Shown: one piece after another, positions 3,001 through 61,016 of the stretch
Numbering within the stretch: the stretch's first letter is position 1
How the letters are laid out: every line of letters begins with the position of its first letter
Source: Arthonia radiata
Taxonomy: Eukaryota > Ascomycota > Arthoniomycetes > Arthoniales > Arthoniaceae
DNA length: 64,000 bases
Direction of reading: 5' to 3'
NCBI GenBank assembly: GCA_002989075.1
Contig: PSQN01000010.1
Location: forward strand, 558,001-622,000
Notes under the pieces: generated by a model
The model's database searches: none
What the model was told of the DNA's origin: nothing
Seen by the model: only the letters and a program-made list of their open reading frames with translations
Position numbers and translations under genes: made by a program

Positions 3001-4401
3001 TAATTTTTTTTAAATATTAATACTAATATTAATATAGCTATATAAGTATAGCTATTTAATAATTATACTACTTAGAAAGCCTTTTATAAATTTACTATAT
3101 ATTAAAACTTAGAAGCTTAATATTAAGCTAATACTGTATAGTTAGTATAGATATTTTATAGACTATAGCTTATATCTATAAAATCTGTATTTATATTTAA
3201 GATAATAATAGCCTATATACTAGTATTTCTAGCTACGTTACTTAAGCTATTTAATAGTATATTCTTATTCTTTCTACTATTAATAATAATACTTAACTTT
3301 AGATTAATATTAGTACTACTATATTTATCTATTTTAACTTAAATAACTATATATTTAAGTCTTTTTTAATTTAATTTACTAATAAATTAATTATCTATAT
3401 ATATATTTACTACTAGTAGAATCTAAGTAAGTTTATAATAGAAAGAACTACTCTTATCTACTAGCTCTACTATAGTCTATATACTATCTCTAGTTATTCT
3501 ACCTAGTATAGTCTTAATACTAGTACTATTTCTACTATTTCTACTATTTTAGTTACTTCTAGTCCTTAAAGTATATTAATTATTTAATCTTCCTTTAACT
3601 TAATACTAATATATATTAAAATAGCTTTTACTTAACTATCTACTAGCCTAGTTATAGTTATTTTTTTTCTAATTTTATCTATCTAGTACTAGTAAGGTAC
3701 TTACCTGTAGTTTTAGTATAGACTATAGTAGAGTTTAGTTAATATCTATATTCTAGTTAACTTAGTATTAGTTAGTAATATTAATTCTAGAAAAGAAGAA
3801 AAGTTAATATAGTCTAATAATAATACTTAGATATAGATTTAGTAGGCCTAGTATAGAATTAATTTCTTTAAGTAGTAGCTAAATAATAGTAACTATCTTT
3901 ATTTTTAGGTTAGATAACATAAAAATAATTATAATAACTATACTAATTAAGATATAGTTATTTAGTAGTTAATAGATAGTTAATAAATAGTTAATAAGTA
4001 CTTAATATCTATATAGAGCTACTTTTACTCTAATAATATAATTAATATATATATTATTGGATACCTACTTATCTTTATCTTTAATATCTTATTTAAAAGT
4101 ACTATTTAACTTTTATTAGAACTTATACTATAAGCTATATTATAGTAGATCTAAAGTAGACTTAATATTCTAAAAGCTTTACTTAGTATACTAAAAAAAC
4201 TTATAGTTCTTTATAGTATCTTTATCTATCTATTAAGTAAGATTATTAAGTATAGCTTTATTCTTAATATAAGCTAGCTTAAAATATATTAAGAGTTTAT
4301 TAAACTATATAATCTTATTATTAAGGTACTAGAGACCTAGTTAAATATAGTCTAAAGGCTTATTTAAGACTATTAAATTAGCCTCTAGACTATTTTATAC
4401 T
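1..4401. repeat. AT-rich RIP-degraded repeat block
   Basis: Very AT-rich sequence dominated by TA, AT and TAG/TTA words, with no open frame of useful length on either strand. In ascomycetes this is the usual outcome of repeat-induced point mutation (C-to-T mainly at CpA) acting on transposons. An LTR-like TGTTGGGA word sits near 710, but no complete element can be delimited. No host gene is visible. The transposon class of most of this block is unknown. Confidence 0.75.
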
Positions 4402-5078
4402 TGTTAGAAATTAACCAACTAGCTGGTTAGTCGGAACTCTTAGGAGCCTAAAGTATCGAACAGGTCCTACCAGCTGTCTCGGTCTAAAATAGAATAAGCC
4501 TTTTACCTAAAGGGTTGGGCCTAGTAGCCCGAGTTTAAGACAAAAAGAAGCATTGTACGACTTATTTTAGACAGCTAGTTTATAGTCTAAAACAACACAG
4601 AATAAATTTAGAGACTAACAGTTTTAAATAGACAGAATTACTATCTTGTACGGTAAATTTCGGGTTATCTGACTTCTATTAAAAAGAATAGATATCTAGT
4701 AAGTTCTATATAGACCGCTAAACTTAGATATATAAGCTAAAATCTCTTTAGAGAATTTTAGCTAATAAGATAGACAATATAATAATAGCTTTTCCTTGCT
4801 ATTAAGTATTGTATCTGTACTAAGCCTAAGTATTGTACTAGTTCTAAGCTAGTCTCGTCTTTCTACTCTTTATAGTAGTATTCTTCTTCTTTTCTGTACC
4901 TTTTTAATAAGTTATAAGCCTAAGTTAGTACCAATTCCTTTTAAATTTCCTTCTTAGAAAATATTTCCCCTACGGCTCCTATCGGTATCTCCGAACGATC
5001 CTATTACCAATCGACTCTGAGTTTTGAGCTCAATTTAACTAGCTAAACAGAATTTCCTTTTTTAGAAATCTCTAACCA
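4402..5078 (+). repeat. Candidate LTR of a Copia-type retrotransposon
   Basis: The segment starts TGTTAGAAA and ends near TCTAACC at 5071-5077, which resembles the TG...CA inverted ends of a Ty1/Copia LTR with the last base mutated. It lies just before the decayed gag frame, as a 5' LTR would. A second LTR copy was not found in the window, so the assignment rests on end motifs and position only. Confidence 0.35.
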
Positions 5079-5089
5079 TATATTTAGCT

Positions 5090-5716
5090 ATGGACTCCTC
5101 TTATAAGATCTCTAAACTTAAGGGCTCGACTAATTGAGACATTTAGTCGATTCGAATAGAGGCTCTTTTAACTAAAAAGGGCTACAGTAATGTTATAATC
5201 CCCTTTTCCGGCTATTTAGCTAAAAATATTATCGAAGCTAGCCGTTAGAAACAGTTAACAAGGGCAGCAGCCCTTATTCGACTAACTCTAAAGAACGGTC
5301 CTCTTATTTAAATAAAGGGGATTTATAACTCTCTAGAGCTTTAAAATAGTCTAAAAAGGTTATACAAATCGAAAGATTTTAGTTTCGAGTTTCTAATTTG
5401 CAAGAAGCTCTTTAGCACTATACTTAGTAAGGTAAAAAATCTTAAGCTTTATCTTACTAAAATTAGACAATTAACGGACAATTTAGTAACTCGAGGACTA
5501 GTACTACTTAATAAGGTAGTAGCTGCCTACGTTCTCTACAATCTAACTTCTAAATATAAGCATACGGTAGCTATTATTAGCTAAAGCTACCGACAAACGA
5601 CTAACGATATAAGTTTACAGGACTTATTTAGTTAACTTATAGATAAGTCTCGCCGAATCCGCGGTATTACCTTAGTAGAAAAGGTTTTTACTGCAATAAA
5701 CAATAAATTGACGTAA
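5090..5716 (+). pseudogene. RIP-mutated Copia gag fragment
   Basis: Reading from ATG 5090 gives about 208 codons in one frame to TAA 5714, interrupted by several stops. The protein resembles the gag/UBN2-DUF4219 type of Ty1/Copia elements: it opens with a segment reading LKGSTN-stop-DI-stop-SIRIEALL, where the two stops fall where tryptophan is expected (an NWxxW pattern in this family). Stops from TGG and CAG codons are what C-to-T change on either strand produces. Protease, integrase and reverse transcriptase parts are absent downstream, because the AT-rich sequence ends near 5726 and normal-composition DNA begins. Confidence 0.6.
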
Positions 5717-34340: not shown

Positions 34341-35807
34341 TCAGTCCAAGGCAGTCTTGGTCAATGAGCTATGCCTCTTTTTCGCAGCCAAAGCAACTAC
34401 TTCTGGACCTTGAATGATGCCGCTTCCAGACATTGTCTGCGTTTGTGCAGAAGTTCGTTTTCTCTTGTATCTCTGTATGATTGTCCAAAACCCCCATGCC
34501 GCAAATGTTAACAGCGTCAGAGGAGCAGTGACCGCGACATAGAGCGCCAACTTCCTCCTCCAAGACTCGTCTGAACCGCCACTCCAATTCAATAGCGGCA
34601 TACTGAAAAGAGAGGAAACAAATGCCCCAGGCAGGAAGAACATCGTCACTACGGCCACCGTCTTCATGTTTGCCGAATCTTGCTGCGTGGCTCGTGCAAG
34701 TGAATGTGCGTCCTCTGCGATCTGCTGGCCAGCATCATTATCAAATCCCGTAATAAGGTGGAACAGCTATATTCAAAATCTGTAAGTACATTCACTCCAG
34801 CCATGTGTCAAACTTTCCAGGAGTTTGAGACAGGTTTAAAAGATACTTACAGCATCTCGCTGAATCTGAACGCGACGGCTGATGAAATCTGCGTCGCAAC
34901 GCTGCATTACAATATGCCTCTGTATCGTCTTCACGTTTTCAATCAGCGGTCCGGATGCGTGTTGTACTTCTGGTGAGTTGTCTTCATCCAAGGACCCGCT
35001 AACATTGTCGAGGATGAAATGGTTTAGCTCCTCTGCGACATCTAGCTTCCGCGTGCTGTTCGCGACTTTTAGCGCGCAACCACTCATCCTAGCTGACAAG
35101 TTGAATAGATCCCCAATCGCCGGACGTTCACTTCGGGACTCAAAACCATGATGCCCGGTTCTCAACTCAATTTCGCGCACCGATTTCTTGATCGCATCAT
35201 AAGTAGCGTACACCTCCCCACAACAAAGCAGCGAGCACATTAATCCCGGTGTCATATGGCAATCCGCCACTTTGTGAAAATGTTCACTACTAATCATGAC
35301 TTGGAAGACGCGAATGCTTGCCCTGGGAGCGATGCAGATGACGCTGATCGGGTTCGAGTTTGCACCTCGAGACCATGTCATGGCCAATTTGGGGTGATTG
35401 CAAAATAGGTAAGTTTGCGCTCCGCCTGGTCCCTCACAAAGACGATTCGCCATAGCGAACGACGCTTTGAAGCTCTTCTGGGCCAGTACGTGTCCAAACG
35501 CCTGCGCCAGATCTTCCAACAAGCCTTGGCCAATATCAACGACCCTCTGGCGTGTATCGCGCGGTATCCAGGCGACTCGCATGAGACATCTCTGAGTCCC
35601 GATTTTGTCATCGTGACTCGACTGATTGGTCTCATCTATCCATTTGTCGAGTTGCCGGTCCCTGACTCCTCGGTTTACCACCCGTCGCTCCAAGTTCAGA
35701 CCTTGGAGCTCCCAAATCTCTGAAACGCTGAAAGTGTCTCTTCCGGTTGTAGTAAAGTCACCCCAGAAATCCTGTCGTGAGCTGAAGTAATGGTTTACAA
35801 ATGTCAT
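34341..35807 (-). CDS. CorA-like membrane protein
   Basis: Exons 35807..34851 and 34766..34341, joined across an 84-bp GTAAGT...ATATAG intron in phase 0, give 460 residues. The N-terminal ~330 residues are a soluble domain of fungal CorA-like type. The C-terminal part has a long helix (RRVQIQRDA-LFHLIT across the splice), then KTVAVVTMFFLPGAFVSSLFS as membrane span 1, a short loop, and LYVAVTAPLTLLTFAAWGFW as span 2. This is the two-span topology of CorA magnesium channels, but the GMN signature after span 1 is absent (MPLLNW instead), as in many fungal accessory CorA-like proteins, so metal transport is not assured. Confidence 0.78.
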
Positions 35808-38425: not shown

Positions 38426-40155
38426 ATGCATGGAGACCAGTCTCCAGGAGATCTCTTCCAAGCCTGCGGCACCATAGACCAGGCCTGGGCGTCCCCGATC
38501 GTATTATCTCTTGGTATGTAGAAGTTATCAATGACGAAGACACGACATCTTACTGGTTTTTCAGATGGAGGTGGTGTGCGCGGTCTTTCGAGCTTACTTT
38601 TATTAAAAGCTATCTTCCTTCAAGTGGCTTTTGAGGATGGGGATGGCAATCATGATAACCTTGCAGAGGAGGGCAATACATCAATTGCGAGACCTTGTCA
38701 CTACTTTGATCACATGACTGGAACAAGTACAGGAGGGTAAATATCCATTTGGCGCAAACGTGCTTGAAAGGGACAAGCTGATCGTTGACAAAGCATAATC
38801 TCGCTTTTACTTGGTAGATTGAGAATGCCAATACAAAAAGCGATCAGCATCTACATAAAATTCAGCAGCGACATTTTTAGCGCCCCGCGCAAGTTTGGGC
38901 ACGTGCCAAAATATGATGCATCAAACATGGAAAAAGTAATTAAAGGTGCCCTTAACGAGAACTGTGGCTCGCCAACGAGTCTGGGAGAGCATGCATGCCT
39001 GCGACAACCGGACTACCAGATGCATTTGCATCGGAGGTGCATGACGTGCGTACGGTTCGACACGTCTCTCTGTGCAAGTTGCGGCTGACTTGAATTAGGT
39101 CTGTGGCTGCCCTAGAAATGACCAAGACAGCTGGAAGGGGCATTTGCCTTTTTAGAACGTACGATCACTGGCCACCCGACGTTTCAGATGAAGATACACA
39201 ATACCTAAACCCTGGTCGTGCTGATGGAAAGGTTCTTATCTGGGAGGTTGTCCGCGCGGCCACGGCTGCAACGAGATACTTCGCTCCCATGTTCATTGAG
39301 GGTCATCCGTACGTGGACGCAGGTTTATATTGGAACAATCCCGTTATACATGCTTACAACAACGCCGAGAATCTTTCCACAAGCTCTAATCAGCGCGTGG
39401 CAATCCTTATTTCCATTGGCACAGGTGAGTAAGATCCTCCAGCGGTACCAGGTTGTTCGAGGAGATGTCGCTTGCATTGTCTCAGTATGATAGCGCCGTT
39501 CTTGCATCCGAGCGGAGGATGACTGAGGCATTTCCACCATGTTATTACAGTGTTACGGCTGAAGAACGTTGACTGACGTCTCCATGTATCAGGAGAAAGG
39601 ACCCCAAAAATGCCTCCACAAACAACAAGACGCGTTCAGCTTTTCTCCCAGTCCCTCAGATTCTTTAAAGGCCAGTCTTTAGATACTGAAAGACACCACG
39701 AAGAAATGAAGAGAACGCTTAAAGGCCAGGAAAGAAACCCTACATTTTATCGACGACTCAAGGTGGAGAGAGGATTGCAGGGCATGAAGTTGGACGAATG
39801 GGAAGTTGGACGAATGGACAAAAAGAAGCGTTTCCCTATCTCCTCAAAACCGCCCGAGCCTGCTCAACTACCACGGACAGATACTTTGGGGGATTTCGCA
39901 GATGTTGCGAAGCTCGCGCCGTCTCAAGACATCAATTGCGAGACAGTGGATAAAATCGCGGAGGTAACGAGGCGCTATCTTGCACAAGCCGAGGTGAGAG
40001 AGCTCGTCAACAGTTGTGCAAAGGAGCTAGTCACGAAAGCAAGAGCTAGACGGACGGCTGATTTCGAACGATGGCAGTACTTTACCGATGCACGCGAGAT
40101 GAGGGGGCCAAGCTTGTACAGGCAGCCAGACCCTCCAAATACCAGAAGCCATTGA
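38426..40155 (+). CDS. Patatin-like phospholipase
   Basis: Five exons: 38426..38513, 38565..38736, 38818..39045, 39099..39424, 39593..40155; introns 51, 81, 53 and 168 bp; 458 residues. The oxyanion motif DGGGVRG is rebuilt exactly across intron 1 (residues 30-36). The nucleophile motif GTSTG has Ser84. The catalytic Asp is D236 in YVDAGLYWNNP (DGG/DAG motif). Together these are the Ser-Asp dyad of patatin/cPLA2-type acyl hydrolases that release fatty acids from phospholipids. The C-terminal ~185 residues are charged and helical with no recognised domain. In fungi such domains also occur in NLR-like immune proteins, but no NB-ARC/NACHT follows here. The last intron is unusually long for this window and is the least certain. 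Confidence 0.82.
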
Positions 40156-40606: not shown

Positions 40607-41518
40607 TCAACGACGGTGATGCCGACGCGCTCCCTCACCCCGTCGCTCTCGCTCCGCCGCTCTACGTCGCTCATACGCCGCCTCCTGCTCAGGGCCAATG
40701 CCATAATACTGTGGACCGTCCGGGACAGAAGCCCTCACCGTACTCTCACTCCCCCCGCTCTCACTCACCGAGCCCCGCGCCCGCGCCAGTCGGTGCACCA
40801 GCGTCCGATCCGTGGACTCCGACGGGTGTTCGCTCGCTACGACTGTGCTGACCTCGCTGTCATTGTCTGGCGGCGCGTGCCCAGGCGTGACGCCGTGCAG
40901 CCAGGCGTTCAAGCGGGGGTGGCTCGAGGTGTGCGGCCCGTCTTGAGCGCTAGACAAGTTCTGCGATTCCTCGACGGCGGTCCGAGAAGGGCGGCGGGTG
41001 CGGTGGGGAAGAACGTGGGTGAGGGCGTTCGCGGTTCGATGCCTGCTGCTGCTCGGAGCCTGTGAAGAAGCCGACTGTGGGGCATCTTGCGGGAACGTCA
41101 GTAGGCCCGGCGGCGCAGGGGGTTCTGCGACACTTTCTTCAGAGCTTGAGCTACTCTCGGGTCGTAGGACGGGGAGATCGGCTGTGTGCGTGTGGCGGCG
41201 GCGAGGATTGAACCGATCCCGGAGATGCTCAGTGCCATTCTCGGGCACAGGTGCAGGGACAAAGGCAGACTGCGCAGGAGATTGCGGCGTGGAAGCACCG
41301 GCTGTGTTCGCGTGGTGGCGATGACGGTTGAAGCGATCCCTGAGATGCTCAGTGCCACTCTCGGGCACAGGTGCAGGGACAAAGGCAGACTGCGCAGGAG
41401 GTCGCGGCGTGGAAGCACTGGCTGTATCCGTGTTGCGGTTAAAGCGAGCCTTGAGACGTTCCTTTTGCTCTCGCCATCCAGCATCATACTGCCCATGAGG
41501 CGGGTCGTGATCGGACAT
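40607..41518 (-). CDS. Low-complexity disordered protein with 40-residue repeats
   Basis: Single exon of 303 residues from ATG 41518; the frame is open upstream, but only to a GTG. Composition is rich in Ser, Pro, Arg, His and Ala, with no membrane span or signal peptide. Two copies of a 40-residue unit lie side by side (core AQSAFVPAPVPE-x-GTEHLRDRFN), encoded by a 120-bp direct repeat at 41221-41460; a third, diverged copy of the RFN part precedes them. The C-terminus is very basic (YERRRAAERERRGEGARR). No family recognised. The opposite strand is also open, a by-product of the composition. Confidence 0.5.
   Translation of the reverse strand: MSDHDPPHGQYDAGWREQKERLKARFNRNTDTASASTPRPPAQSAFVPAPVPESGTEHLRDRFNRHRHHANTAGASTPQSPAQSAFVPAPVPENGTEHLRDRFNPRRRHTHTADLPVLRPESSSSSEESVAEPPAPPGLLTFPQDAPQSASSQAPSSSRHRTANALTHVLPHRTRRPSRTAVEESQNLSSAQDGPHTSSHPRLNAWLHGVTPGHAPPDNDSEVSTVVASEHPSESTDRTLVHRLARARGSVSESGGSESTVRASVPDGPQYYGIGPEQEAAYERRRAAERERRGEGARRHHRR
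41221..41460. repeat. 120-bp tandem duplication
   Basis: The sequence starting at 41221 is repeated from 41341, exactly 120 bp later; the first 59 bases differ at one position. The unit keeps frame and encodes 40 residues of the minus-strand gene. High identity implies a recent duplication or gene-conversion event. Confidence 0.85.
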
Positions 41519-43035
41519 ATTGAAACGATTCCCACTCAGATCACGCCTAAACTGTTGTAAACGCTTCTCAAGAAGCGACGCGACGAGAAAGTGATGGTAG
41601 AGTGTCACGGGATTGAGTCCTGCTCACAAGCTAGATGTTCGACGACCCGATGTCTCGAGGAGTCTGAGCAGGCGCAGGTCCTATAACAGCTACTTCACAT
41701 CTCTCGGGACCGTAGACGTGTCTTTTGTGCTATGATGTCCTTTTGACGTGGCTTCTTGATACCCCGAGAGGCGACTAAATCTGACATACTGCTTACCATA
41801 CTCCCTGACCAGTTTCAAAAGGCTACCTGTTCGCACCCAGCAGGTTACGTTGTCCACGATGGAAGGACTGTCGCGTAAGACAGCCGCATTTGCTTCGCCA
41901 ATATCTCACGATAGACGTAAGCAATCGCAAGAACGCGGGCGACACTTGCTGTTTTGGTAAATGCCCGTCTATGCTCTGGCTCTCGCACAGACGTTGGCGC
42001 AGTTGTGCTTGACGCGTCAAAATGCTGTCGAGTGCATTCTCAATATCGATTTTGATGGAACGAAAGGAGGCAGCACGCAGAGATGGCTTTCCGCTGCCCG
42101 CTTCTGAGCTCCGCCGAAGTCCGCCGACTCCGCGCATCAATGGCCTTGGCGCCCAGGAAAGTAGCAACGTTCGCATCCACGGGCTCAACAGCAAAAGCTT
42201 TCAACATTAAAAGACAACGCCGCCAGCACTCATCGATATCGTCTTGTCAACTCATTTAGTTCTGAAATCCATTGAAGCTCGCAGGCGACTTCCGATGCAT
42301 TCTCCGTGTCTGAAAAGGCTGCACGATCCTTTGGCCACGCGTATGTTCCACTCTTTGCCGGAGGATTATGCTTCAGGATGATTGGGTTGGCTGCCACAGG
42401 CCTGATGGACGCCTCGCAAGCCACCGAGATCCACAATCTGGAGCGAGAGCTTTCGATGCACGAGCAAGATGAAAAAAAAAAGAACACCAAGAGCAAAGGG
42501 TGCAGATGCTCCATGCATCCCCAAGCAAGGCACACCAATGATAAACGTTTTGTGCAGCGCCCCGGTCTTGCTGAGAATGAGAGCAAAGAGTTTTGAATAA
42601 AAGTGAACACCAGAAGCCATAAGGATAGATGATCTCTGCGCATGCTTAAGCATCACATGCTGATTAGAGCTGATACGTGAAGCACCACGACGCTCCTGCT
42701 GGAAACAAGAACAAAGAGAAGGCCGAGCAAAGTAAGGTTTCAGAAATTAATGGCGTCGACAAAGCCATGATGACCGTAGCGAGAGGGGACGACCATACCC
42801 AATCAAGCTTCTAGAAGTATGATACCGGAGCCGCATGCACCTCTAAAACGACGGCGACGACGATACTGTTGGTAGGCGGATCGCCCGCGAAACTTGTCAA
42901 TACAGTCTTCCAAACGCAATGAAGCTGCCAGGCTCATAATCTTTTAAAGACTATGGGCGGTATCAGAGTTTGACTGAGCTTGCAAGCCACCTGTATCCAC
43001 AGCGCAAAGAAGTCCCACAACGCAAAGCTCGGGTT
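41519..43035. other. Intergenic region
   Basis: About 1.5 kb with several short frames on both strands (for example 41823-42194 minus and 42306-42596 plus) but no domain, start context or splice pattern that supports a gene. An A10 tract lies at 42472-42482. Confidence 0.3.
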
Positions 43036-44955
43036 CTATCCCTGCAATACATCTGCAACCCGGATCTTCATGCCCCGACTCCTAGCAGAGGGCTCGCCAA
43101 TGAACCAAGATCGGCTATGGTCAATGTCTCGCTCTCTCACCGTGTCGATCAGCTCGAGATCGAAATGGGTGAACATCATTGCCATGAAGGTATACATATT
43201 CGCCGTTGCAAAACTGCGAAAAGTCAGTACCAGACCCCATCCGCTGGATAGTACAAGCGCAGGCAGTACTTACTTCATCCCTAGACACATTCGATTACCC
43301 ATACCAAAGGGCACGTGGAATCGTTGCATAGCTTCCGTCCGACTAGCGGTGTCAAGCCACCTCTCTGGGAGGAACTTGTGAGGCTCGGGATATACATCTG
43401 GAGACAAAAGAGCCTTTGATTGCGTCATGCTTATTGCCGTCTGACATTGTCAGTGAACGAGTTGATTGACATTGCAATGACGATATTTCAGGGCACACTT
43501 ACACCAGCCGGCAGTCTGTAGCCACGGTAATGCATGTCGTCGCGCGTTGCGATCATTGGTGTGGGGAATGTCACGACCTGTGCGATGCGCAAATACTCCT
43601 TGATCACCGCGCTCTAAAACAAAAACTTAGGCTATCTCATGGTGAACGGTTACGATATACTTACCAAGTAAGACAGCGCTTCCAACTCCTTAATACTAGT
43701 GCAAGGGCGTCCATCTGGCAGAGCGCTCTCCAGCTCATCTCTCAGCCGAAGCAAGACGCTCTTGTTGGCAAGGACATGATACGTGCCGGCGTATGCGACG
43801 CGTGCGAGAGTCGCGCTCCCACCCGCCAAATCCTCGAAGCCATCGTGGGCGATGCGATGATGGTCCTTTTCAGCGTCCGGTAAGCTCGATGCGAGCAGCG
43901 TACGAAAGATGTTGGGCTGGATAGCCTCGGCGTCCACCTCTTCCTTTTCAATCAAACACCTTTCCTTCGCGCGTTGGCACTCGATGGCGGATTGTCGGTG
44001 CATGTCCTGCGGTATGTTAGTTGATGGAGACTCATGGATGATGCTTCCCTGACCTTGTAGACTGAAATCAACGGCACCAAACTCGGCAGAATGAGGCGCA
44101 CAACCCAGACAGGAAGTTTGAGGGCCACTGGCACCATCCACAGACATTGCTTGAGTACGGGAAACAGCGTCCGGAGCGTGTCGTGCATTTCCCACCACTT
44201 TGTCGCCTGGCTTGGATCATCAAGCAAATTGGCAGACTGGTCGAAGAGGTAGCTCGTAAGACTGTCTGTCGACCAGGCAAGGAAAGTCACCCGAGCGTCG
44301 AAATCCTCTCCAGCATCATGAAAGTCTTTGAGCCTCTGAATGAGCCGGTCGACGGCTTCTTGAATTTTTGGCTGGACCGCATTGACGGACTTCTTGGAGT
44401 AGAATGGGCTGATGGCAGATCGCCGCATGCGATGGAGGTGGTGATCAACCGTTCCGAAAGCTGCTCATGTAAGTAAATCAGTCACCACGCAGAGGCTCAG
44501 GAGTGCTGACTTCCTAGATTGTTTCCGAAGATATGCGCGATAGAGGCGTCCTTGTCTCGGATCTGACCGCTTCTCAGATATCCATCGATCCTTTGTGGCA
44601 GTTGCTACCTACTGTGCCCGGCCCACCGAACAGTGTTTTGAGCCAATCGATGTCATCTATGTGGACTTCATTCGGTGTGATACGAACAATAGGACCTGCA
44701 CATTAGCATTCATGCAATCAAAGGTGCTTAGTGTTTCTTACCGTACTCCTTGTGGAGGCGGTCGATTTCGAAGACAAACCTCCCTCCTCCTTCGACGAAT
44801 GTGTCGACAAAGAACTCATACCATTTCGTGGCTCCGGCAATTTTTGGCCCCGGAACTCCAGCGAGTGGGTGAAGTGTCAGTCTATAGATGACTCGCAGGA
44901 GTTCTTTCAGGACAAGCAGGCCAACAAAAAGCAGAGAGTACGAGAGGAAATCCAT
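43036..44955 (-). CDS. Cytochrome P450, trichodiene-oxygenase-like
   Basis: Eight exons: 44955..44742, 44695..44613, 44562..44511, 44460..44054, 44006..43665, 43613..43503, 43440..43274 and 43213..43036. Seven introns of 46-62 bp; 517 residues. An N-terminal ER anchor (residues 1-25) and hinge HPLAGVPGPK lead to a catalytic domain with the K-helix EYLR (372-375), PERW (428-431) and the heme loop FGMGNRMCLG with Cys455 as iron ligand. Such class II monooxygenases oxidise small lipophilic molecules using NADPH-P450 reductase. The I-helix reads GGSATL at 314-319 in place of AGTETT, lacking the usual acid. Splicing restores TFGTVDHHLHRMRR and GTIRDKD exactly, so the gene looks intact. It is divergent from the terpene synthase 1.2 kb away and is likely its tailoring enzyme. 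Confidence 0.9.
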
Positions 44956-46183
44956 TTTCTGTTCACGCAGACACGTGCAATACCAGATCAGCTAGAAGAA
45001 CACAAGATGTCCGCCAAGTGATAAACGGCAAAGGAGTCATATGCGCTCGACCCAATACTTGTATTAACAATCCGCACGAGGGATATTGACCTGAATAATC
45101 GGGATGCGGCCTCAACTCAACATGATCGGCGTCAGGGCACCAGCTTGCAATCAGACAATCGTTCGTCCCAAAGATGAATCATTGAGGATCTAGAGCGATA
45201 CTCATCTACGCGCAGCACCAATACATCGTGGAGGCGCCGCAGACTGGAGCCGCCAATCACTGGATACGGCCGTCCCTGTATATTCAGACTGGGCGCTGTG
45301 AATCATTCGCAGATGGTTTATCAGTATCCTATCCGAACAGGAAGCGGGTTTCATGACTCCGCGTGGACATTTGGCCAATGCAAAGTACCGCATACGTTCG
45401 TCTCAGAGGTATGCAAAAAGCACGGGCCACAATCCCCACCATTTATGCAACCAACTGTAAGCTACCTGTCTAGTAGCTTGAGCTCTGCGCTTAGCAAATG
45501 CAGACACAGCTATCTCAATTGGTTTATCTGTATAAGAAGCGAGCCACCTGTGTATTAGCTCAAAATGCTGCCTCTTCCAAGAGGCTTTGCGCTTGGTAAA
45601 TGCCGATATGACCATCTCGGTGGAATTATCTGTATGAAAGCATGAAAGGCAAGCCACCTATCTAAGAGCTCAAAATGCTGCCTAGTCTGGGGAGTTTTGC
45701 GCTTAGTAAATGCAGAAACGATCATCTCAACTGGCCTACATACATATGACAAGCCACCTGTCTGGTGACTCAATATGCCGTCTGTTCTGGGAGGCCTTCC
45801 GCTTAGTAGATGCAGATACGACCATCTGATCGGATTATCTGCGTGTCGAGTAAGCAAACCGCCTGGTAGCTCAACATGCCGTCTGTTCTAGGAGGCCTCG
45901 CGCTTAGTAAATGCAAGCATGGCTATCTCAATTGGATCGTCTGCATGAGGAGTAAGCCACCCCTGCTGGGAGGCCTTGCGCTTAGTAAATGCAGATACGG
46001 CCATCTAGGTTGGATTATCTGCTCGAGGAACAAGCCACCGTACCCAGCTGAGCACGCTGCATGCATCTTCTTGCTTTCTGTCTTTTAGGACGAAGTACTT
46101 TAAAGCACGACGCTCACGATTGCGGCAGACCCAGCACGATATTTGCTGTTGAATCCTTGTCTTGAATCTTCGCGTACTGGAAG
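44956..46183. promoter_or_regulatory. Shared divergent promoter region of P450 and terpene synthase
   Basis: 1228 bp between the two divergent start codons. The P450-proximal 500 bp is unique sequence. About half of the rest is the tandem repeat listed separately, leaving roughly 140 bp before the terpene synthase start. Any co-regulation of the pair would have to act here. Confidence 0.45.
45460..46040. repeat. Degenerate minisatellite, ~100-bp unit, about six copies
   Basis: The word GCGCTTAGTAAATGCAG or close variants recurs near 45487, 45589, 45699, 45800, 45900 and 45978, giving steps of about 102, 110, 101, 100 and 78 bp. Other shared words are AAGCCACCTG, AGCTCAAAATGCTG and GGGAGGCCTTG. 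Copies differ at many positions and the last is shortened. Read on the minus strand, units give a recurring peptide like IVSAFTKRK...RQHFELLDRWLA, but the 100-bp period breaks the frame, so this is probably not coding now. Confidence 0.8.
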
Positions 46184-47678
46184 ATGGATGTTCGAGCCGA
46201 GCTGGCTTCTGCTCTTCGTGGAAAGTCTATCTATTTTCCGGCACCGGAGAAGCTCTTTCCTCGCTGGGCGCGACGGACGCATCCACATCTCTTCGAACTG
46301 CGAAACCATGTGGATTGTGTGATCGATCGGCAAATTCTCACGCCTAGATTGTCTTTCGAGAAGCAGCTCTGACACAAACAGTGTGTATCAAACACAACCC
46401 AAGCGCAAAGCGCTCAAAAAGGGTGACTTCGGTTTCTTTGGAGCAACGTGGTGGCCGCACGCAGAGTACAGTCGCTTGCAGGCCCTCACAGAGCTTTCTA
46501 TATGGGTGAGTACTGATCGGACCGCGCTTGAGCCCAGATCTAGCCCTTGACACTTCGTCAGCTTTTTGTTTGGGACGACGGTAATTCTCACTAATTGAAG
46601 CGTCGCTGCATACGTCCAGTCTGATTCACAACTAACAGAAATCGACTCTGTACTCGGGACATTCTCTTCGGATCTTGAAAAAGCTCAAGACTTTCGTGAG
46701 CGAACCCTGGCATTCGTTGCGCATAGTCTAGGCCTCCTGCACAATACCGATAGCGCGCACTCTGAGAACCGCATCATTCGAGCTTTTGACTCATTCGGGA
46801 AGACACTCAGAGAAACCTGCCCCTATGGTCAGTGGCCGATCCTTTTCTGCTCACAAAAGCCATCTGACATAATTGAATACGGGCAGAGGGTCGCGTAGGC
46901 CTCTTACACGAAATCCAATACTTTATGACAAAGTCAGAAGTCGAGCAACGTTTAGCCCTAGGCGGATCTATTCCCTCGTTCGACGAGTACTGGAGCTTCC
47001 GAATGGGTACGAGTGCGGTAAGAATCGCTTTGGCTTTGAATGAGTGAGTCCGTCTAGAGCCAAGAAGCAACGGAGACTGATACGGATAGATACGCATGCA
47101 ACGTCGACCTGCCACCAGCGTTGAGAGCTGATCACCGTCTCCAACGAGTCTGGGAAGCGACAAACGCCATCATCTCCATGTCAGTGCTGCTGTATCTGCT
47201 GCTATATTTCCGGCATACTCCAGCTAACCTCGCAGCAGTGTCAATGACATCTTCTCTTTGCGGAAAGAGCTCGTAAGACATTCTGCTGGTGCTGTGTCTT
47301 GCTCAAGAGAGACTTATGTTTATCTAGGCCGAGAACGCTGTTGACAGCATCATTCCCATCTTTTTTGCCTCGACTGCAAACGCTCAAGAATCGGCAGATA
47401 TGGCTACTGACCTCATCGTTCATTACGCTGATGATTTTGATCGGGCTGCGGTGGAGTTGGCAGAAACGAGGATCCATGATCCAGCTACTACTGAAAATCT
47501 TCATCGTATACTTGAGGGATGTCGCTCTTATTGTACTGGCAATCTGGAGTGGAGGTATGCTTGCAGAGCTTGAAGAGAGCCAAGTTTGACGCTGATATGA
47601 AACCCGGACAGCTTTCTCACGGGAAGATACAGTACTGCCGCTATCGTAGATGGCGAAACGATGTCAATCTTGCTTTGA
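46184..47678 (+). CDS. Class I terpene synthase
   Basis: Nine exons: 46184..46350, 46382..46505, 46562..46580, 46639..46827, 46887..47043, 47090..47179, 47239..47272, 47328..47554 and 47612..47678; 357 residues, normal for a fungal sesquiterpene-type cyclase. The metal-binding motif DDEID is at 102-106 (LFVWDDEID, rebuilt across the 19-bp exon 3). The NSE triad NDIFSLRKE has N251, S255 and E259. The RY pair that senses diphosphate is R341-Y342 near the C-terminus. GDFGFFGATWWP and YCTGNLEW are family landmarks. The enzyme ionises a prenyl diphosphate, probably farnesyl diphosphate, and cyclises it; the product cannot be told from sequence. Intron 1 would be only 31 nt, the one odd point; otherwise it is a frameshift. 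Divergent from the P450. Confidence 0.88.
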
Positions 47679-48285
47679 AACCTTCAGCGGTCTGAAAGTG
47701 AGCAGATGAAGGGATATGACATCACGAGATTGCATCTACAAGTTAGAACGATCGAGCAATCCAACGCAAAACGTGTACGGGTTTTGCTTGAAAAAGAAGA
47801 TGGCCGGGAAAAGACTTGGCGTTGCCCGCCGCCACCCGCCTTATTTATCCGGGCAGGCTCCATAATGCACTCCTCTATTTCTAATTAAAGAGCCCCAGAT
47901 ATTCAAAGTTTAGGGGCTTAAACCGCTAAATCTTCTCGCGCCTCCTTTACTGCCTTCGCGCTTTCATCTATAGCTTGGTCCTCTCGCAGGTACTTCCGCT
48001 CTAAGGGGCCCTTCTTATGGTCACCTCCTAATTTAGCTTAAACTACATGCAAGAAGTTATACTATGCCTCCAGGGAAAAGGGTAGCGCTAAATGTTTACG
48101 CTGCTTAGAGCCGCGCCGGTTACGGGCACTCTAATCTCAAAATTAGAGTATAGGATTAGAGTGCCCTCAGCCTGGCCTTATTTTCCATCACGCACAGTCC
48201 ACAGAAAATGCGCGACTCCAGACGCTGTCAGAAAGTCGAAGCCGTAGAGGGCATTTGAACGCTTCTGCTCAGCTTTCTACGGATC
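47679..48285. other. Intergenic region with a small transposon relic
   Basis: The 3' flank of the terpene synthase. From about 47880 to 48166 it becomes locally TA-richer and contains the relic listed separately. No gene supported. Confidence 0.35.
47880..48166 (-). repeat. RIP-like transposon relic ending in an inverted repeat
   Basis: Read on the minus strand, a frame of about 80 codons is charged and protein-like (segments GGDHKKGPLERKYLREDQA and ESAKAVKEAREDLAV) but broken by TAG/TAA stops where tryptophan is plausible. At one end, GGGCACTCTAATC (48124-48136) is repeated perfectly inverted at 48154-48166, 17 nt apart, with an inner ATTAGAGT copy. This looks like the end of a degraded element; the class is not recognisable. 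Confidence 0.35.
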
Positions 48286-48976: not shown

Positions 48977-50332
48977 CTAGTACAGGCTTTTTCCTAGTAT
49001 TCGGAGAGGCCTACTTTTCTGGACTTTGTAATTTACGATGGTATCCAACATCTCTAACGACGCTCCACCAAGAACAAGTGTGTTGCCCGCATACTCGTCT
49101 TCCACTCCCTCGCAAGTAGCCGAAAATGGTCGAACCTGCTGTGCCGTTCTCAATGACTCCTTGGTGATTAGCTTAGGGGTATATGACGCATCACGAGACA
49201 CGTCTTTATTGCTCTTCTCCACCTTGCATGTTTGGCCTTCTTTCTCACTGTCACGCTGATAGGCTAGCGTCTGTCCAGATGAGCATGCGTGGAGTGAAGG
49301 CCGCGGAGCTTGCATGCCATCATACCTTTCAGACTTTCCACCTTTCACTTCAATACCGAGGTTGGGACAAATACTTTCCTGACTCAACTGTGCGACCGAG
49401 GTCATCCCATCTTCGCTCACTTCATCTGAAGCTTTGAACTCCTTCTTGATCTCCTCTTTACCAAGTAATTGCTCACTTCGCCCACGGTTGCCGTGCTTCT
49501 TCGCTCCATAGTTCGGGCCTTCATCTTCCATGTTCATGGCTTTTGAAACAACGGTCAAGCTGTCTGCGCGGGCGAATGACTGCGGGACCTCGCCTTGTGA
49601 CGCTTCTCCTATTTCACGTTCGTGGCTGTCCCCTTCATCCGCAAGCAGCATTTGGACTTTAGATTCCTGCCTTCTCCTGCTGGGCTGACCTATATCTTCT
49701 TCAATAAATCCCTGAACGCATTCAAGCAGCTGCTCACCATAGCGAGCAGCAGTCCGTCCTGTAAAGCCTTTCTCCCTAAAGTCGCGCCTCAACTGCCGCC
49801 ACTGTAGTGTGTCGTCTTCCGTGTACGCAGTCATCACAGAAGCGTCGCGGTGACGTCGAGAGGACAGCTCCTCAACTTTGGTGGCAAGCGTTTCAAGCCT
49901 TGGTTCCATTCTTCCAAGAGCGCTGACGACACTGCCATTGAGAAACGTGGAGATGGAGGCGTTGCACCGTCGCACGATTTCTCTGAGACCATTGAGGTCG
50001 CCATGGCTTTTGCGGATGCGAGCCCACACGCGACGTGGACCACTCTCGGATTCGAGATCCTTGTATTTCGCTACCACTTTGGATAGCTGTTGTGTAACTT
50101 GCTCGCTGCTCGCAAGGATGTTGTTCCAATCTTGGAGGTCCTCTTCGGTCCGCACATATAATGATCCAGGCGACTCTGCATCTCGCTTTGCACGTGCAAG
50201 ATGGCCGCGCAGCATGCGCAGCTCTAAAGTGATGTCTGCATAGTCGCCGCAAGCTGCATTCCAGGCGCGATATGATTTGACGGCAAGGTTCAGCGCGAGG
50301 GCGATGTCTGAGGCCGATATTCCGAAGGACAT
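48977..50332 (-). CDS. STAND N-terminal-like protein, probably frameshifted at the 3' end
   Basis: A 451-codon frame from ATG 50332. The start (MSFGISASDIALALNLAVKS) and following helices (GDYADITLELRMLRGHL; a Leu-rich helix with WNNIL, then YKDLES and W...GDLNGLREIVRRCN) match the fungal N-terminal domain found at the head of STAND/NLR-like proteins, about residues 1-150. The middle is charged and disordered. The frame stops at 48977, but a shifted frame immediately downstream (to 48570) encodes an ordered segment (KIIEFSTPGYEEEMRRASFC, then YWQRIKNRV and CYVVTFWNDGR) that looks like the natural C-terminus. One base in the T5 run at 48988-48992 would join them. No NACHT or NB-ARC domain is present. 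Function unknown; an incompatibility or defence role is only an inference from the family. Confidence 0.65.
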   Translation of the reverse strand: MSFGISASDIALALNLAVKSYRAWNAACGDYADITLELRMLRGHLARAKRDAESPGSLYVRTEEDLQDWNNILASSEQVTQQLSKVVAKYKDLESESGPRRVWARIRKSHGDLNGLREIVRRCNASISTFLNGSVVSALGRMEPRLETLATKVEELSSRRHRDASVMTAYTEDDTLQWRQLRRDFREKGFTGRTAARYGEQLLECVQGFIEEDIGQPSRRRQESKVQMLLADEGDSHEREIGEASQGEVPQSFARADSLTVVSKAMNMEDEGPNYGAKKHGNRGRSEQLLGKEEIKKEFKASDEVSEDGMTSVAQLSQESICPNLGIEVKGGKSERYDGMQAPRPSLHACSSGQTLAYQRDSEKEGQTCKVEKSNKDVSRDASYTPKLITKESLRTAQQVRPFSATCEGVEDEYAGNTLVLGGASLEMLDTIVNYKVQKSRPLRILGKSLY

Positions 50333-50927
50333 GTTTCAGTCATTATTCAGCTGCGCACCCTTATGCATTGAGAAGAGCCGGCTTCATCGAGCCTGCTTTA
50401 TGTCACAAGCTTCATTGCGCCCATTACGGGTCTCCTGGATCGCGGAAGAGCTTCAGTGAAGAGCAGATAGTGTAGTCAAGTAGTTGAGTAGGTGCAAGGC
50501 TGCGAGAGTGGGGCGCAGCAAGGCAATGGAAACCCCATGCTGATTGCCTGCAGCTAGTACTGCAGGTGTCAAAAGTGGTTACCGGCTCACATAAGACCAT
50601 CGACACAATGACATGGGCAGAACGTCCGAGCGTGATCGCTCTGACTTTCAAGAAAGCCTCGTGGAGTCGCTTAGACGGGCACAAGTGTTCTTAATCAGCA
50701 CCGCGAATTGAGTGGCTCAAAACTAGGCTCTGCTAATTCTTCTCGGACGGCAACCCATCCAGACCAGTGACATCCACAGTACCGTAGGTCGCAATGCGCA
50801 AGTGCACCACCGGTTAGTAATGCAATCTGCCGCTAAGATTACTCTGCTGTGCCTCATGAATTGGTTTTTCTTCAGAGAATGTTCGTGCTTGCAGACATCT
50901 TTGCTGCTTCAATCTCCCTTGTGAAGG
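50333..50927. promoter_or_regulatory. Divergent intergenic region
   Basis: 595 bp between divergent starts at 50332 (-) and 50928 (+). CTTC/TTTCTTC-rich sequence lies shortly before 50928. No gene supported. Confidence 0.35.
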
Positions 50928-51686
50928 ATGTCAAGCTCAAGACCAGTCATTGTCTTTGTCACTGGTAGCTATCAAACACCGGCTACCTATGCAAAATTCT
51001 TCGAAGCTTTGAATGCAGAGGGTTTCGAAGTCCATGCGCCGCGTCTTCCTACAAGCGAAAAGCCCACCAGATTCTCTCCCTCCGACGATGTTGAGAACGT
51101 CCGATCGCTTGTGACATCTCTAGTGGACCAACAGCGAGAGATCGTTCTAACGATGCACTCGTACGGCGGCGTGGTCGGCACGACTGCCATTCGCGATCTA
51201 AGCTTCTCCGCCCGAAAGAAGATGGGGAAGCAAGGCGGAGTCATACACCTCTTGTATATGTGTGCGTTTATCTTGTCTGAAGACACAACCATGGCGGATC
51301 TCTTGGCTCAAGTAGGATTCTCTGGAGAAAGCATCCTGGACATCGCTCAGGACGGCACATCTTTTCCTGTCGACCCTAAGGAATTCTTGTACCATGATGT
51401 CCCCGCTGAGAACGCAGAAGAGCCTCTGCGCACGCTTGTGAGGGCACCACTATCGTGTATGAGCGAGCCTCGGATGGAATACGCAGGCTGGAGGGACGTT
51501 CCATCAACGTATTTGTATACTACGGAGGATCACGCCTTGCCGCTGGCTTTTCAGAAGCTGATGACGGGGATCGTCAAGGAAAAAGGTGGGATTTTGCAGC
51601 TGGAGACCTACCATTGTGGGCACAGCCCGCATCTGGTGAAATTGCATGAGATGGTGGACGCCGTCGCAAAAGTCTGCGGCATTTGA
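50928..51686 (+). CDS. Alpha/beta hydrolase, EstC/hydroxynitrile-lyase-like
   Basis: Single exon, 252 residues. The N-terminus PVIVFVTGSYQTPATYAKFF is the first strand and oxyanion region; TMHSYGG places the nucleophile at Ser78 (HSYGG in place of canonical GxSxG); YLYTTEDHALPLAFQ carries the likely acid; CGHSPHL near the C-terminus carries the catalytic His. This is the compact AB_hydrolase family close to plant salicylate/methyl esterases and bacterial EstC, which cleave small esters. No signal peptide, so cytosolic. It lies about 3.2 kb from the terpene synthase and could be a pathway enzyme, but nothing in the sequence shows that. Confidence 0.8.
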   Translation: MSSSRPVIVFVTGSYQTPATYAKFFEALNAEGFEVHAPRLPTSEKPTRFSPSDDVENVRSLVTSLVDQQREIVLTMHSYGGVVGTTAIRDLSFSARKKMGKQGGVIHLLYMCAFILSEDTTMADLLAQVGFSGESILDIAQDGTSFPVDPKEFLYHDVPAENAEEPLRTLVRAPLSCMSEPRMEYAGWRDVPSTYLYTTEDHALPLAFQKLMTGIVKEKGGILQLETYHCGHSPHLVKLHEMVDAVAKVCGI

Positions 51687-51841: not shown

Positions 51842-52660
51842 CTACTTTCGCTCGTACAGCCCATGGTTGCTGAAGGCCATCGACTCATCCTTGGATACAC
51901 CCGACATCGGCGCGGCCTCTGGAGCGACGCATTCGCGATAACTGCGATCGGTTTCTTTCTGGAGTGCATCAAGATGCTCCTGAGCTTCTGCGAGCGCACG
52001 TTTGTTCAAGTAGGGGATTTTCGGATACTCTAGCACCCAAGTGTAGATGAAGGGCGCGCCACCGCCATTGAATCCACGAGGTACACCTTGAGGGTCCATG
52101 CCTGGCGTGTACCAGAAGGTATCCGACTTCACCGAGTGGCTTGCATCGCAATTTTCGTCCTTGACGACAACGTGAAAGCGCCGGAGGACGTGCTTGATCA
52201 CCTGTAGATCCTCGCTATTGAAGCTACCATCGTAGACTTCGACCCTCAACACGTGTAGCGATTTGCGGGCGTCGTGAATGGTGTCGCAGATGAACTCGAG
52301 CATGGCCACCTGGTATAGCACCCTCTTGTAGTTGTTCTCATGCCACTCTGTAGCGATTTCTGTTTCTTTCTGAGCATCGCCGTCAGAGTAATAATGCGCG
52401 TTCGCGCGACAACTGTCAACCGTTCGATATGCAGAAAGGGACCCCAGGCCCATGCAGATGACTTTTGAAACACTGCGCAGTTTCTCCTTGCTTGCGCTAT
52501 CAAGGATCTGTGTCCGAGGTCTTGACCCAGGCTTGTTGAAGTCCTGCTGAACGACGTCATAATCCGTCAGCACGAGCTTCGCTTGTTCGGACATGTGTTT
52601 GAAGGTTGGGTGAGTCAGAGCTTCGAGTACATTGTGGATTGAATGAGGAATTCGATCCAT
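51842..52660 (-). CDS. SRR1-like protein
   Basis: From ATG 52660 the frame gives 272 residues (open upstream to 52789, but only with a GTG). The central block KVICMGLGSLSAYR followed by YQVAMLEFICDTI has the layout of the SRR1-like domain (a GLGS turn, then a helix with xxQxAxL), widespread in fungi and of unknown molecular function. Downstream segments FWYTPGMDPQGVPRGFNGGG and WVLEYPKIPYLNK are unassigned. No signal peptide or membrane span. The family call is by motif only. Confidence 0.5.
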   Translation of the reverse strand: MDRIPHSIHNVLEALTHPTFKHMSEQAKLVLTDYDVVQQDFNKPGSRPRTQILDSASKEKLRSVSKVICMGLGSLSAYRTVDSCRANAHYYSDGDAQKETEIATEWHENNYKRVLYQVAMLEFICDTIHDARKSLHVLRVEVYDGSFNSEDLQVIKHVLRRFHVVVKDENCDASHSVKSDTFWYTPGMDPQGVPRGFNGGGAPFIYTWVLEYPKIPYLNKRALAEAQEHLDALQKETDRSYRECVAPEAAPMSGVSKDESMAFSNHGLYERK

Positions 52661-53929
52661 GAAGTTTCTGGATTTGGGTGCAGCTACTCTCGTGCCTTTA
52701 GTATGTTCGTTTCCTGTTGTGACAAAATGATGCAGGTGATAGGCGGCCCTAATGTTCTTGCTTCTGGGAAATGCCAGCTCGAGCAACACCTATGGTCATG
52801 TCTTGCAATTGGCCACATCTCTGCTGGTTGCTGGAGCAATGCCACTTGTCTCGTCGCAAAAAGGACTAACTGGGTGTTTAGCGCTCAAGTACCAGGAAGC
52901 TGGTCTTCTGACATTTACGTTATTAGCAGGCAGGCCGCGAGAATCATGCACCAGCTCCTCTTCAAATCGTGTCATCGCTGTGAAGTGTATGATGACCATG
53001 ATCCGGTGGACCGCCATCAAACAGAGCAGAAATCGGGTACGGAGTGTATAGGCTCGAGCAAAAGTCTCAGCAGCGCAAAAATGTAGGATGGCGGGTGAAG
53101 GCTTGGCATTGCTGGGCATTTCAGGATATGTTGCCGCGCAAATTGTGGGGCTTCAGGCCCTGCAGTTTCGTCAGTGAAGGACTTTCTGGGGGCTTGGCTG
53201 GGGTCCGGCTTGGGGTATGAAGACCAACCGGAAGCGCCCCCAATTGCCCGGCAACCTATCCTGAGATGCACAGTATCCCGCCACCCAGATTACCTTCTTT
53301 CTTCTTTTTATCGATCCAACCCTTTCGGTTCAATACACGTTTACGATACTCTATTACAGCCAACATAACAGGTACGTCCATCTCTAATACTAGATAGAAC
53401 ACCGGGTCCTTTCAATCGGGCACAGCCGTTGGCAGCATGTCCATAGCGACGAGCTTACGAACTTTGGTATACCGGCCACGTTCTCGGCCTCAATTGTTTA
53501 GGACGACTCGTCGAAAAGTGATGACAAGAGACGCAAAGCCGAACACCAGGCGCATAGCTTCGGCCGTGAGGTGGTGGCAAGTATGCCAGCGGAGTGTTCC
53601 GCGTATCTTTGTTTGGCCTTGGGTCATGCTTGGCCGCATAGTTTACCCATGTTGATCGCCTGGTCATCGTTTACATTGGTACAGCGTAGCGCGTTGTGCA
53701 TCAAGGTATGCCTCATTAGATTGAGTGCTTCCTCCTCGCATATAGGCGTGAAGTCTGTGGGGCTCAATTGAAATCGCATGTAACGCTTACAAGCGGAGAG
53801 ATTTAGCGAAAGAATCATCGACTTCTCGAGTTCTCGACTCTGATACAGGTCTGTCAAAGCAGGCTACAGTGCAGAAATGCCCTCTGCGTCTTCCGCGAAG
53901 TCAGCTTCGATTGGCATAGCCGCTTCGTC
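52661..53929. other. Intergenic region
   Basis: About 1.27 kb. No gene supported. Around 53262-53335, on the minus strand, lies a shortened relative of the MITE found at 54087: it shares GGTTGGATCGATAAA-like and GGGTGGCGGGATAC words but lacks the centre and clear ends. Confidence 0.35.
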
Positions 53930-60164: not shown

Positions 60165-61016
60165 ATGCTGCAATGCTCTGAGCAGGCAGAAAAGACGCCA
60201 AATAAGAGACGCAAGGTAGATCCGACAGAGGAAGAGTCGGGTCTTTCTGACCTGATCAGATCACCGGTGCATCATTCGGACGATCACAGTCGACAAAAGT
60301 ACTGTCATGGGGTCGTAAACTGCACGCAGGATTGGCACACCCAAGAGAGTCGCGTTGAAGGAGCCCACCACCACGCTTACGACAATCGCATTCCTGACAG
60401 TTGCACCTTTGCTAACGGCGCCAACAAACCTGAAAGCCACACCCCCGCCAACGACGCGGACACTCTGGGCGATCAGCAACACGACCGATCTGTCCCCAGC
60501 ACGGAAAGCTTGCTCAAACCCAATCAGAGTCGCATAGGTGGTGACCTTCGAGCACAGTCGCACCCTGTATGGGTGCACACTAGTCTCCATCAAAGTCACG
60601 ACGTAGACTCTCCTGATGTCATTCAGCGGCGTGGGGTCTCTGGACACCATGAGCCCCCTGTGACGTGCAAGCTGACTGAAACATCATGGTTTTCAGCGAT
60701 CGTGTTCAAAGTGGCCACCCGTACCAAGGAGATGACGAAGAGCAAAGACGCGAAGCAAGGTATGCGACGCGAGCCCTTGTACGTCGAACCTCACTGATCT
60801 TTTCTAGTGAAAGCTATGTTGGAGATGAACAAGCACGCGCTCGTGAAATGTGTGTACACTTTATACATTAACAAGGTGGGAGTCAACACCATCTACTGGC
60901 GCGATCAAGAGGAGCCGTGTTCAGTGTGCAAGAACAATGGCAAGGACTGTGTGGTCTTCATTGATACGGACACGCTGCGTTTCTGCAAATGGGTCTCACA
61001 TCGTTCAGGCATGTAA
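60165..61016 (+). CDS. Protein with Ser/His-rich region and C-terminal cysteine cluster
   Basis: Exons 60165..60759 and 60808..61016, joined across a 48-bp GTATGC...TTCTAG intron in phase 1, give 267 residues from ATG 60165. The N-terminal half has KKMLQCSEQAEKTPNKRRKV, a likely nuclear localisation signal, then a low-complexity His/Ser/Asp region. The C-terminal 70 residues are ordered (VKAMLEMNKHALVKCVYTLY) and hold a cysteine cluster, CSVCKNNGKDCVVF and LRFCKW, a possible zinc site not assigned to any family. The frame is open a few codons before ATG 60165. It may be an independent gene or the middle of a larger decayed coiled-coil gene; the good splice junction argues it was recently functional. 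Confidence 0.45.

Follow-up and report, generated by a model that had tools for sequence, protein, structure and literature searches.

A divergent terpene synthase and cytochrome P450 gene pair

A 64,000-nt window of the Arthonia radiata genome (contig PSQN01000010.1, here C6:558001-622000, in an assembly of 33.5 Mb and 16 contigs) contains a class I terpene synthase gene and a cytochrome P450 gene arranged head to head. These two genes probably constitute a minimal terpenoid pathway, with a rough probability of 0.72. Both genes are intact on paper, their core motifs are complete, and their layout is divergent. The initial annotation had described a head-to-head pair with a gap of 1.2 kb and all main catalytic motifs in place, and the gene models agree with it on both points: the start codons are separated by 1,228 bp, the synthase has the DDEID motif, NSE triad, and RY pair, and the P450 has the heme Cys455 and EYLR (Table 1). 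A cyclase directly adjacent to a tailoring enzyme is the arrangement of a minimal cluster.

From the sequence, we infer the substrate, the product, the coupling of the two enzymes, and the co-regulation of the pair as follows. The class I (ionization-type) cyclase would take the diphosphate off a prenyl diphosphate, most likely farnesyl diphosphate supplied by a housekeeping synthase encoded at another locus, and then perform the cyclization. The neighboring P450, which is probably membrane-anchored, would hydroxylate or further oxidize the cyclase product, and both genes would probably be driven from the common 1.2-kb region. Of the pathway proposed in the initial annotation, the divergent pair itself is well supported, whereas the action of the P450 on the cyclase product is still something that we infer.

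Table 1. Features of the terpene synthase/P450 locus and its surroundings, in window coordinates. Single numbers are the starts of open reading frames (ORFs).
Feature	Position	Strand	Details
Cytochrome P450 gene	43036-44955	-	8 exons, 517 aa; spliced model open throughout
Cytochrome P450 exons	44742-44955, 44613-44695, 44511-44562, 44054-44460, 43665-44006, 43503-43613, 43274-43440, 43036-43213	-	
Intergenic region common to both genes (putative bidirectional promoter)	44956-46183		1,228 bp
Degenerate tandem repeat	45475-46039	.	spacings about 78-110 bp; copies 67-78% alike
Class I terpene synthase gene	46184-47678	+	9 exons, 350 aa; ATG 46184 to TGA 47678
Synthase exons	46184-46329, 46382-46505, 46562-46580, 46639-46827, 46887-47043, 47090-47179, 47239-47272, 47328-47554, 47612-47678	+	
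Probable GC-AG intron 1 of synthase	46330-46381	+	GCAAAT...ACACAAACAG, 52 nt
Rival intron 1 of synthase	46351-46381	+	GT-AG, 31 nt; donor GTCTTT; gives 357 aa
Synthase intron 6	47180-47238	+	tandem NAGNAG acceptor CAGCAG
SNF2/RING helicase	6169		Pfam match above cut-off
Nitronate monooxygenase	11014		Pfam match above cut-off
PI4-kinase	14572, 15636		Pfam matches above cut-off
Arylsulfotransferase	19533		Pfam match above cut-off
PhoD-like phosphatase	24226		Pfam match above cut-off
Adenylate kinase	30628		Pfam match above cut-off
Patatin	39157		Pfam match above cut-off
Alpha/beta hydrolase	50925, 55673		Pfam matches above cut-off
SRR1	51845		Pfam match above cut-off
CorA-like	34377		Pfam match below cut-off
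AAA	54223		Pfam match below cut-off
Zn_clus	60801		Pfam match below cut-off

Gene models and catalytic motifs

The spliced 350-aa synthase matches PF19086 with 105.7 bits (E 3.5e-30, cut-off 23.7). The three elements that mark class I synthases are all present in this model, namely the aspartate-rich motif (DDEID, residue 95), the NSE triad (NDIFSLRKE, residue 244), and the C-terminal RY pair (residue 334). At the tandem acceptor of intron 6, the second AG gives IISIVNDIF and the first adds a Ser (IISISVNDIF); the second agrees with the relatives in the alignment.

For the P450, all seven introns are GT-AG and 46-62 nt long, and the spliced protein matches the Pfam p450 model (PF00067) with 178.3 bits (E 3.1e-52, cut-off 22.8). 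Among the four unspliced exon ORFs that were scanned, two gave p450 matches below the cut-off (0.0081 and 5.5e-05), one gave a match of 2.3e-12, and the fourth gave none. The family motifs are complete, with the ExxR element as EYLR at residue 372, the PERF/W element as PERW at 428, and the FxxGxRxCxG heme loop as FGMGNRMCLG at 448 (Cys455), and the N terminus carries a hydrophobic stretch. A phmmer search against PDB returned 270 P450 sequences at E<=0.001 (best 2.8e-19), and the top matches, judged from the best 60 of the 270, are plant and animal P450s; such matches say nothing firm about the likely substrate. The NCBIfam matches of both proteins are far under the cut-offs. The usual I-helix consensus has an acid residue followed by Thr. 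In our own reading of the alignment, the I-helix of this P450 is AGGSATL, with Ala at the acid position and the Thr retained. An unusual active site was considered on this account and dropped, as Ala is likewise found in the C1 and C16 P450s among the three compared by tblastn; the C9 P450 has Glu.

Intron 1 of the synthase is the difficult part of the models. When the in-frame, stop-free GT-AG and GC-AG options of 25-130 nt were enumerated and their donors were scored at positions 3-6, the best GT donor scored -1.02, compared with 0.75 to 5.73 for the other 14 introns of the two genes, which are all GT-AG and for which this range is in-sample (training introns). The GC donor GCAAAT scored 0.98, a value that carries no charge for GC in place of GT. 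In comparisons with 8h6q and 7w5f, the shorter, 350-aa model reaches 79.3 and 77.3 bits, compared with 77.5 and 73.6 for the 357-aa model. Twelve PDB targets have E<=1e-9, and the shorter model outscores the longer one in 10 of them, although six of these 10 differ by 0.5 bit or less. The 357-aa model is better for the remaining two targets (9hqd and 9hqi), by 3.5 bits each. The canonical GT-AG intron 1 was rejected as less likely on donor scores, despite these two targets. The initial annotation had given full-length spliced products of 357 and 517 aa. The P450 length is exact, whereas the synthase appears better read as 350 aa, with the 52-nt GC-AG intron as the best-fitting, if unproven, solution. 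GC-AG introns are described as a spliced class that accounts for <1% of introns in model organisms, and GT-AG introns make up 98.7% in fungi, according to the accessible text of one source (PMC7072748).

Solved relatives and known systems

The closest solved relatives of the synthase, as the best two of the 12 PDB sequences found by phmmer at E<=1e-9, are presilphiperfolan-8-beta-ol synthase (8h6q; 2.6e-21; 77 identities over 303 query positions, 25.4%) and Terpene cyclase 6 (7w5f; 1e-20; 72 identities over 333 query positions, 21.6%). By their names, we take the former to be BcBOT2 and the latter to be TaTC6, the trichobrasilenol synthase of Trichoderma. Both are class I cyclases like the window synthase; Terpene cyclase 6 shares the WDDEID motif with it, whereas 8h6q has FDDQFD. 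BOT2 is situated in a larger cluster. That two fungal-type sesquiterpene cyclases are the best solved relatives supports the reading of the pair as a terpenoid pathway. Given that identity is only about 22-25%, the product of the synthase is unpredictable. In addition, the models of one survey are less reliable in predicting the cyclization type of ascomycete than of basidiomycete cyclases, according to its accessible part (PMC10210940).

One of the known systems provides a precedent for a minimal cluster. BcBOT2 is from Botrytis cinerea (PMC8403587, in the part available). In the accessible text of PMC7687074, TaTC6 is described as not clustered with biosynthetic genes, unlike the window synthase with its P450 neighbor. 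The bra (brasilane) cluster of Annulohypoxylon truncatum and other Hypoxylaceae is described in the available part of PMC8403587 as very small, with three core genes that encode a terpene cyclase, a P450, and a glycosyltransferase. The class I sesquiterpene cyclase and P450 of this minimal cluster resemble the window pair, whereas its third core gene, an N-acetylglucosamine transferase, has no counterpart recognized at the window pair among the ORFs scanned.

Shared putative promoter region

The region common to both genes contains a degenerate tandem repeat. Seven regulatory patterns were counted in its 1,228 bp, and none is convincing alone. HGATAR sites number nine, against 4.17 +/- 1.89 in dinucleotide shuffles, a count reached by 10 of 500 shuffles. 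Seven of the nine sites lie inside the repeat array and are therefore mostly duplicates of each other, so that they do not count as independent evidence for regulation. TTATCTG, a pattern picked after the repeat had been seen, occurs four times against 0.17 expected (reached by 0 of 500 shuffles), and YNAGGCC, a Tri6-type pattern, occurs three times against 1.12 (55 of 500). The other four patterns are not clearly above expectation, being reached by 118, 343, 397, and 436 of the 500 shuffles. A dispersed repeat was considered for the array and rejected, as a search of the assembly, which skips very common words and does not prove rarity, gave the self-match and no second copy. Within the literature collection searched, no paper was found on minisatellites in bidirectional promoters of fungal secondary metabolite genes.

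Other synthases and P450s in the assembly

A search of the genome with PF19086 gave one match at the default threshold, on C1, and three places at E<=10, namely C1, the window gene, and a weak match on C9. The window synthase was missed at the default threshold because of its introns; such counts are lower bounds, as other intron-rich synthases may have been missed. On C1, the synthase forms a second divergent pair with a P450 (about C1:2166335-2169999, L010:6335-9999); the P450 is on the minus strand, the synthase is on the plus strand, and the two are head to head. As read from the sequence, the P450 begins with a start codon at L010:8149 (-) and the synthase with one at 8783 (+), which leaves about 0.63 kb between them. 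The window pair has the same layout, whereas the two synthases differ in their relatives. In the C1 synthase, both the N-terminal ORF (3.6e-31) and the C-terminal ORF (6.1e-45) are similar to the cyclase domain of fusicoccadiene synthase, with the middle part unspliced, whereas the window synthase is nearest to 8h6q and 7w5f. The window synthase as a tblastn query has no match in L010. The P450 that adjoins the C1 synthase on the opposite strand is the best match of the window P450 in the rest of the genome (138.6 bits, compared with 134.1 for C16), and these next best matches, on C1, C16, and C9, have about 24-34% identity over the longest stretches. Polyprenyl synthase matches were found at three places in the assembly, on C11, C15, and C9; the search for this domain gave no match on C1, where the synthase has no recognized prenyltransferase domain. 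A further P450, a rhodopsin-domain ORF, an SDR, and an MFS transporter were also observed near the C1 pair (C1:2160001-2180000).

In the 33.5 Mb of the assembly, 99 p450 pieces merge into 64 clusters (both lower bounds). By rough arithmetic that ignores strand, a randomly chosen point has a P450 no more than about 1.2 kb away in about 0.5% of cases. A divergent P450 neighbor is present at both of the two clear PF19086 synthases found, and the second pair on C1 supports the two-enzyme reading. The weak match on C9 (C9:1055517-1055854; L024:5517-5854) has 44% identity to the window synthase over 45 aa, with a second piece of 30% over 43 aa that has a stop inside. The rest of the enzyme was not recognized there, and the surrounding 10 kb has no significant P450 match. 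This place is a probable relic of a synthase related to that of the window.

Genomic neighborhood

Besides the pair, 31 distinct ORFs of the window were scanned with Pfam, a scan in which small exons may have been missed. The matches are given in Table 1, and the remaining ORFs have none. A prenyltransferase was not recognized among the 31 ORFs, and neither a transporter above the cut-off nor a further oxidase was recognized within 20 kb of the pair. The only transporter-like or regulator-like matches nearby are below the cut-off, namely a CorA-like fragment (34377-34766) and a Zn(2)-Cys(6) match 13 kb from the pair (60801-60977, E 0.0098). In the initial annotation, no transcription factor, transporter, or prenyl transferase had been recognized nearby, and no pointer to a larger cluster is apparent within about 20 kb among the ORFs scanned. 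An alpha/beta hydrolase, suggested in the initial annotation as a possible third member, does exist as an ORF at 50925-51683 (PF12697, 7.2e-21), whereas nothing was found that ties it to the pair. It is separated from the synthase by an ORF without a Pfam match (48980-50335) and is followed by an SRR1-domain ORF (51845-52789).

Several other features of the window were observed. The stretch at 47840-48160, 3' of the synthase, has a short inverted repeat of the type actctaat...attagagt. A transposon near 47830-48200 was considered and rejected, as the assembly gives only the self-match (the search skips very common words, and rarity is not proven). A 120-bp tandem duplication (41179-41425; 2.1 copies, 89% matches) lies within the minus-strand ORF 40610-41623 and, if that ORF is coding, would be a 40-aa repeat. 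A piece of a patatin-like phospholipase (39157-39429, 1.7e-06) has a GGGVRG-type motif directly upstream at 38552-38689, a stretch that has no Pfam match alone. Far from the pair, the ORF at 11014-11859 matches nitronate monooxygenase (PF03060, 2.5e-33).

Decay of the type left by repeat-induced point mutation (RIP) is absent at the locus, where the P450 and the synthase have (CpA+TpG)/(ApC+GpT) ratios of 1.31 and 1.28, respectively, compared with 0.17 in an AT-rich block. This block extends for about 30 kb (C6:~532000-563000), covering window positions 1-5500 and the adjoining stretches L014-L016. Its GC content is 0.24 in window positions 1-5000, 0.28 in L014, and 0.36 in L015, and the RIP-like bias is strong (TpA/ApT 1.74 and (CpA+TpG)/(ApC+GpT) 0.17 in window positions 1-5000). 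Repeats mutated by RIP may make up this block, or it may be a centromere. Together with the short introns, its RIP-like bias would fit a filamentous ascomycete; a 5.8S rRNA model and a conserved 5.8S pattern gave no match.

Alternative explanations

The intact frames, full motifs, Pfam matches, polyprenyl synthases elsewhere in the genome, lack of RIP-like decay, and bra precedent all support a two-enzyme terpenoid pathway. Several points weigh against it. In either model, the donor of synthase intron 1 is atypical, being GC instead of the canonical GT or else a GT site with a very low score, and splicing could be inefficient as a result. The C1 P450 is the top match outside the window by only a narrow margin, and the C1 synthase is of another branch, which means that neither pair is a simple copy of the other. 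Moreover, the 0.5% estimate disregards the general clustering of fungal metabolism genes. The synthase alone may make an unmodified volatile terpene, with the P450 as an unrelated neighbor that belongs to another pathway. This would be in line with the unclustered TaTC6 (PMC7687074, accessible text), with the statement in the available part of PMC8403587 that at least half of the Hypoxylaceae terpene cyclases are without obvious tailoring genes and may yield volatiles, and with the lack of a recognized third pathway gene near the pair among the ORFs scanned. However, a divergent P450 stands beside both clear PF19086 synthases, each with a rough chance of 0.5%, and we regard an unrelated P450 as unlikely.

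Membership of the pair in a larger cluster, together with the hydrolase at 50925 or with a regulator farther away, is quite improbable. The hydrolase match is strong and there is a weak Zn_clus match, but the latter is below the cut-off, the Pfam-less ORF intervenes before the hydrolase, the SRR1-domain ORF comes next, and the scan recognized neither a transporter above the cut-off nor a further oxidase within 20 kb. A decaying locus, in which intron 1 is no longer removed correctly and the pair has recently become a pseudo-pathway, would account for the lack of an acceptable GT donor and has an apparent parallel in the C9 relic. We consider such decay very unlikely, given that the other 14 introns are GT-AG, all other exon frames are open, the motifs are complete, the locus has no RIP-like signature, and GC-AG introns are a known and spliced class, albeit <1% in model organisms (PMC7072748, accessible text). 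In a more far-reaching version of the two-enzyme pathway, a distant cyclase lineage (about 25% identity or less) would produce a sesquiterpene with a new skeleton, to be oxidized by a dedicated P450, as a self-contained two-gene pathway with a bidirectional promoter built by local amplification of a unit of about 100 bp with GATA-factor sites. This version is speculative and has a low probability.

Implications

The locus is probably functional and an ordinary, minimal terpenoid locus of a known kind, as judged from its gene models. This type of locus is well known in fungi, and current understanding is not overturned. Its interest lies in the cyclase, which is too distant from the solved enzymes for its product to be guessed, and in the size of the system, as a two-enzyme terpenoid pathway would be easy to transfer to a laboratory host for testing.

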